From Halomarina salina (GTDB lineage Archaea; Halobacteriota; Halobacteria; Halobacteriales; Haloarculaceae), in contig NZ_JALLGW010000001.1 in the NCBI RefSeq assembly GCF_023074835.1, forward strand, positions 1,240,001 to 1,304,000: a stretch of DNA of 64,000 bases. The letters run 5' to 3'. The notes beneath the pieces were generated by a model, which saw only the letters and a list, made by a program, of their open reading frames with translations, was not told the origin of the DNA and did no database searches. Position 1 is the stretch's first letter. Each line of letters begins with the position of its first letter. Made by a program: the position numbers and the translations under genes. This document shows, in pieces, positions 47,371 to 51,376 of the stretch.

Positions 47371-48594
47371 ATGGCTGCCCGCCGCCGACGTTGGCTGGAG
47401 TACGCCCTCACTAGCATCGGCTCCCTCACCGTCCTCCTCGGCTGTCTCGGACACGCACTGACCGCCCGTCTCACCCGAATCCTCGGCCGGGACGACGACT
47501 GCTGGGTGTTCGGCGCACGGCGGGGGAGTGGGTTCGTCGACAACAGCCGCTACCTCTTCGAGTACGTCGCCGAGGAGCGCCCGGAGGTACGGGCGGTGTG
47601 GCTCTCGACGGACCCCGAGACCGTCGCCACCGTTCGCGAGCGAGGCTACGAGGCGTACCACGCGCGTTCGCTCAGGGGACGCTGGCTGACGCTCCGGTCC
47701 GGCTGTGTCGTCGTCACGCACGGTCTGCGCGACGTGTCGCTGGCGCTGACCGGCGGCGCGTTCGTGGCGAACCTGTGGCACGGCGTCCCCCTGAAGACCA
47801 TCGGGTTCGACGCGGAGCTGGGCGAGCAGTCCTGGCTCCGCCGCCGTGCCCACCGCTTCGTCGCTGCTCGGAACGACCTCGTCGTCTCCCCGTCGCCGAT
47901 GGCCGTCCACCAGATGGCGACCGGGCTGGGGGTTCCCCGCGACCGGGTTCGGGTCCTGCCGTACCCGCGCTACGACCCGCTCGTCGTCCCCGAGGCGGTG
48001 GAAGGGGGCACCGTGGACGCCGACGCCCACGAACGCCTCGCGGAACTCCGTGCCGAGGGCCGACTCGTCTTCTACGTCCCGACGTTCCGCGAGGAGGGAG
48101 CGGACCTCGGCGAGCGCGTCGACTTCGCCGCGCTGGACGGACTGCTGTGCGAGCAGGACGCCCACCTCGTCGTCAAACCCCATCCGTACGAACGGCTCGA
48201 CCGAGCCACCGACCTCGACCGGGTCACGGTGCTCGACGCCGTGGACGACCTGTCGGCGGTGCTGCCGTTCGCGGACGTGCTGCTGACCGACTACTCGTCG
48301 GCGTTCGTCGACCACCTCCTCCTCGACCGACCGCAGGTGTTCTACGCTCCGGACCTCGACGAGTACCGCGCGGAACGGGGGTTCTACTACGACTACGAGT
48401 CGCTCGTTCCCGGCCCGGTCGCACCCGACGACGGGGAACTGGTGACGTCGCTGGAGGAGGCCCTGACCGAGGACCCGGACGCCTCGCGACGCCGTGCGCT
48501 TCGCGAGACGTTCCTGACGGACACCGGCGTGCGACCGTCGACGGTCGTCTTCGCGGCGATTCGGGCCGGACTCGACGACGGCGTGGTTACATAG
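47371..48594 (+). CDS. CDP-glycerol glycerophosphotransferase family protein
   Basis: 407 residues, TagF-like. An N-terminal hydrophobic stretch (WLEYALTSIGSLTVLLGCLG) would hold it at the membrane. Characteristic blocks are SGCVVVTHGLRDVSLALTGG, HGVPLKTIGFDAELG, YPRYDPL, VVKPHPYERL and LLTDYSSAFVDHLLLDRPQV then FYAPDLDEYRAERGFYYDYE. In bacteria this family transfers glycerol phosphate from CDP-glycerol to build teichoic acid. Here it probably adds glycerol-phosphate units to a surface glycan or lipid. A TATA-like CTTATT about 25 bases upstream suggests a leaderless start. Confidence 0.85.
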   Translation: MAARRRRWLEYALTSIGSLTVLLGCLGHALTARLTRILGRDDDCWVFGARRGSGFVDNSRYLFEYVAEERPEVRAVWLSTDPETVATVRERGYEAYHARSLRGRWLTLRSGCVVVTHGLRDVSLALTGGAFVANLWHGVPLKTIGFDAELGEQSWLRRRAHRFVAARNDLVVSPSPMAVHQMATGLGVPRDRVRVLPYPRYDPLVVPEAVEGGTVDADAHERLAELRAEGRLVFYVPTFREEGADLGERVDFAALDGLLCEQDAHLVVKPHPYERLDRATDLDRVTVLDAVDDLSAVLPFADVLLTDYSSAFVDHLLLDRPQVFYAPDLDEYRAERGFYYDYESLVPGPVAPDDGELVTSLEEALTEDPDASRRRALRETFLTDTGVRPSTVVFAAIRAGLDDGVVT

Positions 48595-48659
48595 CGCTCG
48601 GTACGTCACTCGACCACAGCGCTGGGACACGTAGTCGAACGTACATTAGATGGAGAAGA

Positions 48660-48667
48660 TTAATATT
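48660..48667 (+). promoter_or_regulatory. TATA box of the phosphodiesterase gene
   Basis: TTAATATT is centred about 27 bases before the ATG at 48691 in otherwise G+C-rich DNA, a textbook leaderless haloarchaeal spacing. Confidence 0.6.
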
Positions 48668-48690
48668 CTGGACGTGTAAGGAGACACCAG

Positions 48691-49566
48691 ATGCAGCGAG
48701 GCCGCTCGACGGCGGTACCGGAGTCGGTGGGAGAGTCCATCGCCACCAGCGGGACGGACGTCATCGCCCACCGTGGGTTCGCGGACGTCGCCCCCGAGAA
48801 CACCCTCGCGGCGCTGGAACGTGCCACCGCGGCCGGGGACGAGGGACGACCGGCGATGGTCGAACTGGACGTGATGCCGTGTGCTAGCGGCGAACTCGTC
48901 GTGTTCCACGACGCGACACTCGACCGTCTCACGGACCCGCCCGCGGCGCTCGCCGGCCGGTCCGTCTGGGAGACGCCACTGGAGACGCTCCGCGGCCTCG
49001 ACGTACTGGACAGCGGCGAGCCGATTCCACTCCTCCGCGAGGTGTTCGACGTGGTCCCACCCGACGTCGTGCTCAACGTCGAGTTGAAACACCCCGGCGT
49101 CCCGCCCGGGCCGACCGGTATGCTCACGCCGGAGGGCGTCGACCGGGAACGGGCACGCTGGCGACCGTTCGTCGAACGGGTCCTCGACGTCGCCGCCATC
49201 CACGACCACGACCTCCTGGTCTCCTCGTTCTTCGAGGGAGCCATCGCGGCGGTCCGGGACGTCGATCCGTCGGTTCCGGTGGCGAACGTGTTCCACGACG
49301 CCATCGAGGAGGGGTTCACCGTGGCCGACCGCCACGACTGCGAGGCGGTCCACGCGCCCTGGAACATGATCTACGGGACGCCCATGTTCAACGAGGAGTA
49401 CGTCTCCGGACCGTTCGACTCCATCGACCTCGTGGGTCGCGCCCACGACGACGGGCGGGCGGTGAACGTCTGGACCGTCGAGACCGCAGAACAGGCCCGC
49501 TCCCTCCGCGACGCGGGCGTCGACGGCATCATGGTCGACGACCCGGCCGTCGTCGCGGAGAACTGA
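48691..49566 (+). CDS. Glycerophosphodiester phosphodiesterase
   Basis: 291 residues. The GDPD motif pair is clear: IAHRGFADVAPENTLAALER (catalytic His and Arg) and VELDVMPCASGELVVFHDAT (Glu, Asp and His), then LNVELKHPG and VDGIMVDDPAVV. It cleaves glycerophosphodiesters to glycerol phosphate and an alcohol. There is no signal peptide, so it acts inside unless another signal is used. Placed between a glycerophosphotransferase and a nucleotidyltransferase-phosphatase, it may recycle polymer or lipid head groups. Confidence 0.9.
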   Translation: MQRGRSTAVPESVGESIATSGTDVIAHRGFADVAPENTLAALERATAAGDEGRPAMVELDVMPCASGELVVFHDATLDRLTDPPAALAGRSVWETPLETLRGLDVLDSGEPIPLLREVFDVVPPDVVLNVELKHPGVPPGPTGMLTPEGVDRERARWRPFVERVLDVAAIHDHDLLVSSFFEGAIAAVRDVDPSVPVANVFHDAIEEGFTVADRHDCEAVHAPWNMIYGTPMFNEEYVSGPFDSIDLVGRAHDDGRAVNVWTVETAEQARSLRDAGVDGIMVDDPAVVAEN

Positions 49567-49816
49567 CGCCCGGCCGGCCCGCCAGCTTTCGACACCCCGC
49601 CGATTCTCATCGGAGTCATTCACGAACGTTGTGTGGGGACGGGAACTGTGAGCGAGTATATGGAGATTGTCTCCGGATTTCCTGCCTTACTCCCGAATCT
49701 GACTCTCATCAGCGACTGATTATATCTATTTCTACGAATTCTCTATATAGCTGTATAGCAGGCCATATGCCTAAGGATACACATCCGTTTCGTCCGGGTG
49801 GAGGACGAGACCACAC
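49567..49816. other. AT-rich promoter region of the nucleotidyltransferase gene
   Basis: Clearly AT-rich DNA with TATA-like runs: GATTATATCTATT (49718-49730) and CTATATAGCTGTATAG (49743-49758). A start from the second would give a leader of about 40 bases. No gene is seen. AT-rich spacers like this are often seen beside acquired surface-polymer genes. Confidence 0.45.
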
Positions 49817-51376
49817 ATGAACCACGCCGTCATCTTGGCCGCGGGTATCGGCTCGCGGCTTCGACCGATCACGTTGAGTGTTCCGAAGGGGTGCGTACCG
49901 GTCGCCGGGCGGCCGATTCTCGCCCACCAGCTACACGCCTACGCCGACGCGGGCGTCGAGAACGTCACCGTCGTCGCGGGCTACCTCGCCGACCAGACGC
50001 GGTCGTGCTGCCGGGCCGTCGCCGAGGAGCGCGACGACCTCTCGGTGAGCGTCGTCGAGAACGAACTGTACGCCAACACGAACAACCTCTACTCGCTCAA
50101 CCTGCTCAGAGAGCGCCTGGCGGGCGAACCGTTCCTGCTCAGCAACGGCGACGTGGTGTTCGACCCGGAGGTCGTCGAGCGACTGCTCGCGGCCGACGGC
50201 AAGTCGGCCATCGCCTGCGACTACACGACGTACTCGGGCGAGGCGATGAAGGTGACCGTCGACGAGACCGACCACGTCGACCACATCGCCAAGGACGTCG
50301 AGCGAGGGGACGCCCACGCGACCTCCATCGACCTGTACCGCTTCTCCGGTGCGTTCTCGGCTCGCCTGTTCGACCGGGCCGAACGGCTGCTGGACGCGGA
50401 GTACGACGCGTGGACGGAGGTGGCCATCGACGACCTGCTCGACGAGTCGGCCGTCGTCCCGGCCAGTATCGGCGGGTCCGACTGGGTCGAGATCGACGAC
50501 CACGACGACCTGCAGGTCGCGGACCGGACGTTCGGCGACGTCGCCCTCGACACGTTCGAGGCGGTGTTCTTCGACCTCGACGGCACGATCTACCTCGGCG
50601 ACTCGCTGGTCGACGGCGCCGCGGAGGTCGTCGAGACGCTCCGCCGACGCGGCGTGAGCGTCTCCTTCCTGTCGAACAACTCCTCGGCGTGGAAGGACGA
50701 CTACGTCGAGAAACTCGAGGCGCTGGGCATCGACGCGACGACCGACGACGTGGTACTGTCGACGGACGGCGTCATCGCCTACCTCGACGAACGGGACGCG
50801 GCCGAGACGTACGTCGTCGGCACCGACGCGATGCGCGACGCCATCGCCGACAGCGGGGTCCCCCTCGCAGCAGACGCGAGCGACGACCCGGAGTACGTCG
50901 TCGTCGGGTTCGACACCGACCTCACGTACGAGAAGGTCCGGGAGGCGACGCTCGCCATCCGGAACGGGGCGGAGTTCCTCCTCGCACACGGCGACACCGT
51001 CTGCCCGACGGCGGAGGGGTTCGTCCCCGACTGTGGCGCAATCGGTGCGCTCGTCGAGACGGCCGCCGGGCGCCCCCCGAAGCGCGTGTTCGGCAAGCCC
51101 GACCCGGAGATGCTGACGCACGTCCTCGCCGACGAGGGCCTTGACCCCGAGGACGTGGTGGTCGTCGGCGACCGACTGGAGACGGAGATTCGCCTCGCCG
51201 ACACGCTCGGCTGTTCGTCGGTCTGCGTCCTGACGGGCGACGCATCGCGCACGGACGTCGCCACGAGCGAGGTCCAGCCGTCGGCGGTGGCCGTGACGGT
51301 CGGCGACCTCCGCGACTCGTTCCGAGGAGCGCCCAGGAGCGACGAGCGCGGTGAGTCCGTCAGCTACACCGACTGA
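49817..51376 (+). CDS. Nucleotidyltransferase fused to a HAD phosphatase
   Basis: 519 residues in two domains. Residues 1-240 are a LicC-like sugar/alditol phosphate cytidylyltransferase (HAVILAAGIGSRLRPITLSV, PKGCVPV, ANTNNLYSLNLLRERL, LSNGDVVFD). Residues 250-519 are a NagD-type class IIA HAD phosphatase (AVFFDLDGTIYLGDSLVDGA, SFLSNNSSAWKDDYVEK, GKPDPEMLTHVLADEG, VVVGDRLETEIRLADTLG). The fusion could make a CDP-activated alditol (for example CDP-glycerol) and hydrolyse a phosphate ester in the same pathway. The linked glycerophosphotransferase makes glycerol phosphate the simplest guess. Choline phosphate or another alcohol is possible. Confidence 0.85.
   Translation: MNHAVILAAGIGSRLRPITLSVPKGCVPVAGRPILAHQLHAYADAGVENVTVVAGYLADQTRSCCRAVAEERDDLSVSVVENELYANTNNLYSLNLLRERLAGEPFLLSNGDVVFDPEVVERLLAADGKSAIACDYTTYSGEAMKVTVDETDHVDHIAKDVERGDAHATSIDLYRFSGAFSARLFDRAERLLDAEYDAWTEVAIDDLLDESAVVPASIGGSDWVEIDDHDDLQVADRTFGDVALDTFEAVFFDLDGTIYLGDSLVDGAAEVVETLRRRGVSVSFLSNNSSAWKDDYVEKLEALGIDATTDDVVLSTDGVIAYLDERDAAETYVVGTDAMRDAIADSGVPLAADASDDPEYVVVGFDTDLTYEKVREATLAIRNGAEFLLAHGDTVCPTAEGFVPDCGAIGALVETAAGRPPKRVFGKPDPEMLTHVLADEGLDPEDVVVVGDRLETEIRLADTLGCSSVCVLTGDASRTDVATSEVQPSAVAVTVGDLRDSFRGAPRSDERGESVSYTD

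Follow-up and report, generated by a model that had tools for sequence, protein, structure and literature searches.

A conserved haloarchaeal gene cassette as a candidate module for CDP-activated glycerol-phosphate transfer

What might a haloarchaeon do with a transferase of the TagF type that is encoded beside a nucleotidyltransferase resembling LicC? This question is raised by a three-gene cassette of Halomarina salina, contained in a stretch of 64,000 nucleotides (positions 1,240,001 to 1,304,000 of the forward strand of contig NZ_JALLGW010000001.1, NCBI RefSeq assembly GCF_023074835.1), the whole of which is called the window below. The cassette encodes a TagF-like transferase of family PF04464, a glycerophosphodiester phosphodiesterase (GDPD), and a fusion protein with an N-terminal LicC-like nucleotidyltransferase (NT) domain and a C-terminal HAD phosphatase domain. 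A preliminary description of these three same-strand open reading frames (ORFs) was exact in its coordinates, and the families that it named are matched by Pfam (Table 1). In our judgement the cassette is rather probably a self-sufficient module that transfers glycerol phosphate after activation with CDP: the fusion protein would make CDP-glycerol (1- or 2-linked), and the membrane-associated TagF-like transferase would use it. Computation establishes the families, the intact catalytic residues, the linkage and co-occurrence of the genes, and their homology to a bacterial set that includes a homologue of glycerol-1-phosphate (G1P) dehydrogenase (G1PDH). The cassette is real, conserved and archaeal, and a variant of a kind already known, namely the activation of a polyol phosphate with CDP and its transfer.

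The three ORFs are taken to be real genes because the cassette is wholly or nearly collinear in ~20 other genomes, at 40-84% identity, and because the AlphaFold2 model of the fusion protein, built with 22 homologues, is a confident one (mean pLDDT 90.7, pTM 0.86). The distribution of the cassette was examined in a sample of 292 Halobacteria genomes. Since a search with the whole fusion is misleading by itself, matching 292/292 genomes mostly via the generic HAD-IIA part, only matches that covered both domains were counted. By this count the NT-HAD fusion occurs in 22 genomes belonging to 8 genera and 5 families, the match being split in one of them (G256), where the fusion ORF (L082:9220-10824) has a duplication of ~26 residues surrounding an ambiguous one, probably where the assembly was joined. 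Strong PF04464 matches (>100 bits) were found in 46 genomes, including all 22 with the fusion (hypergeometric 1e-20, a value that ignores shared descent; at the level of genera 1.5e-4, 8/8 genera, with shared descent only partly removed). In 19 of the 22 fusion genomes no more than ~3 kb separates the transferase gene from the fusion, and the GDPD gene is part of the cassette in 20 of the 22 loci, so that the co-occurrence of the three genes across Halobacteria, proposed earlier as a check, is borne out. Identities between pairs of genomes are correlated across the cassette proteins (r=0.87-0.94), as expected under joint inheritance. A scan of genome contigs, dominated by the HAD motif, returned at least four haloarchaeal fusions, and a tblastn search of plasmids gave no fusion at >=80% coverage. 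The restriction of strong PF04464 matches to 46 genomes, together with a literature search in which no paper on teichoic acids or a teichoic-acid-like pathway in haloarchaea was found, makes it fair to say, as had been done before, that this is not a standard haloarchaeal pathway.

The NT domain is recognized by Pfam as an NTP transferase (PF12804/PF00483, residues 4-146 of the fusion). When a profile of 28 NTs was compared with solved structures, the best matches were LicC (1jyk, 2.5e-30), PntC (7e-25) and IPCT (2e-22), and the closest solved relatives are all CTP-using cytidylyltransferases that act on non-sugar or cyclitol phosphates. The conserved NT residues R14, K24 and K159, the last of them invariant, are equivalent to R15, K25 and K153 of PntC, each of which lowers the activity to <10% when changed to alanine (PMC6697681). 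Furthermore, the GxG(T/S)R...PK loop, the metal-binding D/E/D positions (D112, E225 and D227, all conserved) and the profile match place the domain in the LicC/COG1213-type superfamily. The position of LicC Trp136, which we take to be the choline-binding (choline-box) residue, is occupied by Ala or Ser in the fusion NTs, and with this residue lost the domain falls outside the phosphocholine-specific LicC type and a phosphocholine reading is disfavoured. In addition, the fusions show two lysines with little or no variation (that of E-A-M-K, and K159), of which both are present in IPCT, one in PntC and none in LicC. This residue pattern argues against choline without naming the substrate of the NT. 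The CTP:glycerol-phosphate cytidylyltransferases known so far are nearly all of the HxGH TagD type (PMC8262930), and a search of the 22 fusion genomes gave no TagD (TIGR01518) match above the family cut-off, the weak matches presumably being FAD-synthetase-like proteins.

The other domains also retain their catalytic residues. In the HAD domain (Pfam Hydrolase_6/Hydrolase_like, fusion residues 250-498), D253/D255, K427 and D452, which make up the DxD...K...D catalytic set, are invariant; the domain belongs to HAD-IIA (TIGR01460, 127.3 bits, cut-off 100.15), and its Foldseek matches include phosphatases of the NagD type and the glycerol phosphate phosphatase Rv1692 of M. tuberculosis. Residues H444 and H584 of S. 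epidermidis TagF, presumably its catalytic histidines, align with H137 and H271 of the transferase, both of which are invariant in 22 homologues. These histidines and the profile match make the protein a PF04464 member, although it does not reach the level of a TarF/TagF/TarL equivalog in NCBIfam (92.9 bits for the TarF model, cut-off 550). A hydrophobic helix is predicted by hydropathy at its N-terminus (residues 12-30); the protein therefore probably works on the inner side of the membrane, where its acceptor would be linked to a lipid or a glycan. The catalytic HR, ExD and HD residues of the GDPD (H27/R28, E58/D60, H73/D74) are invariant. Judged by hydropathy only, neither the GDPD of the window nor its homologues have the hydrophobic N-terminus or signal peptide of a secreted, GlpQ-type GDPD, and the fusion protein likewise has no such segment. 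Because both proteins lack signal peptides, the turnover of an external polymer by the GDPD, as suggested in the preliminary description, is not supported, and the recycling of internal glycerophosphodiesters is more likely.

More evidence on the substrate comes from bacteria. The NT profile matches proteins of Bacillota with scores of at least 200 bits, well beyond that of LicC. In eight of the loci examined, the Bacillota NT gene adjoins a homologue of NAD(P)-dependent G1PDH, and seven of these eight loci also contain a PF04464 or TagF-like gene. One genome (G564) has two capsule-type loci (L150 and L155) in which the dehydrogenase, NT and HAD genes follow in immediate succession with a TagF gene in the same locus, one of the two sets standing directly behind a flippase gene and a PF04464 gene; the dehydrogenase of this genome scores 264.8 bits with the G1P dehydrogenase model, below the cut-off of 413. 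A tree of the NTs places the haloarchaeal and outgroup fusions together with both HAD-linked bacterial NTs in a supported clade (96/97) that leaves out the HAD-less NTs. The HAD tree, which puts the bacterial HADs on the same side as those of the fusions (99/98), is compatible with this grouping, but it contains long branches that come together and so gives weak support. At six bacterial loci (L149, L152, L153, L156, L159 and L163), a LicC-type cytidylyltransferase is paired with a G1PDH homologue with no HAD; such HAD-less loci are possibly a bacterial CDP-1-glycerol route.

Relatives of the cassette within the archaea were found as well. In 11 further haloarchaeal genomes a stand-alone NT gene and a PF04464 gene are immediate neighbours, HAD and GDPD being absent. 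Several pairs of a stand-alone NT with TagF are situated within glycosyltransferase islands, and the pooled neighbours of these NT-TagF loci (and of two further TagF loci) are rich in glycosyltransferases and include aminotransferases and pyruvyl transferases. On a plasmid of Halorussus aquaticus (NZ_CP100401.1, 136719-161774; L175) the order is GT4-NT-TagF-ABC transporter-lyase-GT2, and this island holds glycosyltransferases, the NT, the TagF-like transferase, an ABC transporter and polysaccharide lyases. In a non-haloarchaeal family of the same phylum, the NT-HAD fusions are located inside glycan islands, and PF04464 is present in two of three partial genomes. The nucleotide loop of two of these fusions (L114:8961-10481 and L115:1254-2756) is degenerate, reading LAANDNxQLRP instead of LAAGxGxRLRP.

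The cytidylyltransferase relatives of the NT, the lack of TagD in the 22 genomes, the G1PDH and TagF genes beside the bacterial homologues, and the co-occurrence of the cassette genes make CDP activation and transfer of a glycerol-type phosphate, as first proposed, the best fit, with glycerol as the most likely alcohol. From these data we infer not only the alcohol but also the product, its acceptor, its location at the surface, and the roles of HAD and GDPD, as follows. The NT domain would convert CTP and glycerol phosphate (sn-glycerol-1-phosphate or glycerol-2-phosphate) to CDP-glycerol. The glycerol phosphate of bacteria would come from a dedicated dehydrogenase, whereas archaea, all of which make sn-glycerol-1-phosphate for their lipids, would need no such gene in the cassette. 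The haloarchaeal loci contain NT, HAD and PF04464 but no G1PDH homologue. The TagF-like protein, anchored by its N-terminal helix to the inner face of the membrane, would pass glycerol phosphate on to an acceptor that is linked to a lipid or a glycan, and the outcome may be a teichoic-acid-like decoration or a short polymer. The HAD domain may tune the precursor, either by hydrolysing glycerol phosphate or by producing glycerol-2-phosphate, an activity that has been claimed for pneumococcal Gtp3; Wang et al. (2010, J Bacteriol) are said to have assigned CDP-2-glycerol synthesis to Gtp1-3. Finally, the cytosolic GDPD would return glycerophosphodiesters to glycerol phosphate for recycling.

As for the setting of the genes, the cassette genes have 69-70% GC and the intracassette gaps 51-53% GC, while the region upstream of the transferase gene has 62% GC and just one short TA-rich stretch. 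The earlier statement that each gene lies behind an AT-rich promoter holds only in part, fitting the two gaps (51% and 53% GC) better than the region before the transferase gene. The flanking genes are housekeeping ones, a divergent HAM1 gene beside the transferase gene and a convergent Kae1-Bud32 gene beside the fusion gene. No licA/licD or phosphonate genes were seen among the recurrent neighbours. A short-chain dehydrogenase gene is found near the cassette at 10 fusion loci; it was rejected as a cassette member, as its representatives fall into distinct subfamilies (those of different lineages are mostly 24-33% identical) and the family has 43 matches in the genome. In 16 of the 22 fusion genomes, not including the genus of the window, a gene for a CbiR/EndoIV-like (xylose-isomerase-like) TIM barrel adjoins the cassette (L064:6788-7576, L074:11633-12418 and 14 further genomes); the genome of the window has only a 45-48% homologue elsewhere (G000:C1:1698600-1699364). 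The closest NCBIfam model to this protein is the CbiR cobamide phosphodiesterase, the score being below cut-off for the member examined. In Halohasta-type genomes the cassette is closely followed on its downstream side by a gene of the bacteriorhodopsin family (L077:11327-12073, with a counterpart at L080:8142-8906).

Table 1. Features of the cassette, in window positions
Feature	Position	Strand	Description
PF04464 (TagF/TarF-like) polyol-phosphate transferase	47371..48594	+	407 aa, single transferase domain, Pfam E=1e-60
AT-richer gap between transferase and GDPD genes	48595..48690	.	96 bp, 51% GC; putative promoter
GDPD-family glycerophosphodiester phosphodiesterase	48691..49566	+	291 aa, predicted cytosolic, PF03009, Pfam E=2e-27
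AT-richer gap before fusion gene	49567..49816	.	250 bp, 53% GC, TTATATCTA- and CTATATAG-like stretches; putative promoter
NT-HAD fusion ORF, whole	49817..51376	+	519 aa
N-terminal cytidylyltransferase domain (NT; LicC/PntC/IPCT type) of fusion	49817..50551	+	profile search, conserved residues
C-terminal HAD-IIA domain (NagD/glycerol-phosphate phosphatase type) of fusion	50552..51376	+	Pfam, Foldseek

Several points weigh against glycerol-phosphate transfer to an envelope acceptor. We know of no assayed enzyme of the fused NT-HAD type. The link to G1PDH is bacterial only, and the G1PDH-linked bacterial NTs are just 26-36% identical to the NT of the window. The genes around the fusion cassette show no glycan theme, which leaves the acceptor obscure. 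The HAD activity could run counter to the pathway, polymer turnover would be a strange task for a GDPD in the cytosol, and this scheme does not account for the TIM barrel encoded beside the cassette in 16 of the 22 genomes. Moreover, the substrates of the COG1213 superfamily include phosphocholine, inositol-1-P, phosphoglutamine and phosphoglycerate, and one member, CpgD, did not accept glycerol-1-P (PMC12275187). This breadth of substrates also speaks for an alternative that we consider possible though unlikely, in which the cassette makes and transfers another CDP-activated alcohol phosphate or acid, such as phosphoglycerate or the phosphate of inositol, choline, ethanolamine or a pentitol. 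Ribitol-phosphate enzymes such as TarL are likewise PF04464 members, and the linked TIM barrel is similar to sugar isomerases and epimerases and not only to phosphodiesterases; however, the Ala or Ser at the Trp136 position, the pairing of bacterial NT homologues with G1PDH homologues, and the lack of a conserved kinase or polyol dehydrogenase in the cassette all argue against this alternative.

The absence of flanking glycan genes at the fusion loci, the phosphodiesterase-like TIM barrel, and the HAD and GDPD that accompany the transferase would all be accounted for by a cytosolic pathway of phosphodiester metabolites (diglycerol phosphate or glycerophospho-alcohol solutes), where the transferase condenses CDP-glycerol with an alcohol phosphate, the HAD removes the terminal phosphate, and the GDPD and the CbiR-like TIM barrel degrade the product. 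The NT, too, resembles the archaeal IPCT of the di-myo-inositol phosphate solute pathway. We nevertheless regard such a pathway as improbable, as the transferase has a hydrophobic N-terminal helix and matches polymer and glycan transferases, related NT-TagF pairs are located in glycan islands, and the HAD-linked sets of bacteria occur at loci of the capsule type, in one case immediately after a flippase gene. Although a GDPD and a glycerol phosphate phosphatase form a recycling route, and Rv1692 is among the structural matches of the HAD, it is very improbable that the cassette is a glycerophospholipid recycling set to which NT and transferase are unrelated neighbours, since NT and HAD form one polypeptide in 22 genomes and in the outgroup lineage and the fusion never occurs without PF04464 among the sampled Halobacteria.

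A further proposal can be made tentatively: haloarchaea may assemble an envelope decoration or polymer of glycerol phosphate, perhaps the achiral glycerol-2-phosphate, via a LicC-family cytidylyltransferase fused to a substrate-preparing HAD, and this would be a second evolutionary route to teichoic-acid-like chemistry, independent of TagD and shared with the gtp-type capsule loci of bacteria. Were this true, teichoic-acid-like chemistry would not be confined to bacteria, archaea would be putting their own lipid precursor G1P (or its achiral 2-isomer) into an envelope decoration, a function would be assigned to the recurring NT-HAD fusion and NT-TagF pairs in ~30 of the 292 sampled haloarchaea, and a TagD-independent source of CDP-glycerol would be defined.

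Among known systems, the wall teichoic acid pathway of Gram-positive bacteria (TagD/TarD with TagB/TagF/TarF) shares with the cassette a PF04464 transferase with conserved catalytic histidines. It differs in that the activating enzyme of the cassette is of the LicC/COG1213 and not the HxGH TagD type (PMC8262930, PMC12275187), and in that the archaeal host has no peptidoglycan. LicC and PntC, the closest solved structures to the NT, have the arginine, lysine and metal-ligand residues in common with it, whereas the Ala or Ser at the LicC Trp136 position, the extra lysines relative to LicC, and the fusion to HAD set the NT apart. In the archaeal IPCT/DIPPS of di-myo-inositol phosphate synthesis, the cytidylyltransferase domain is related to the NT and carries the 'EAxK' and 'IxK' motifs; the cassette has HAD and TagF in place of the CDP-alcohol phosphatidyltransferase (DIPPS) domain. 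CpgD, the phosphoglycerate cytidylyltransferase of Caulobacter, belongs to the same superfamily and activates a three-carbon phosphate with CDP for use in an envelope molecule, but it uses phosphoglycerate rather than glycerol-1-P, is unfused, and serves a bacterial lipid pathway (PMC12275187). The same parts as in the cassette are found, by annotation, in the pneumococcal wchX-gtp1-gtp2-gtp3 region of capsule loci 23F and 15, which has a glycerol phosphotransferase (wchX), a nucleotidyl transferase (gtp2) and a phosphotransferase (gtp3) besides, in the 23F annotation, a dehydrogenase (gtp1) (PMC3493582). Compared with this region, the haloarchaeal cassette has NT and HAD fused, a GDPD added and no dehydrogenase gene, while the Bacillota loci L150 and L155, with G1PDH, NT, HAD and TagF, have matching parts by annotation, those of L150 also in the same order.

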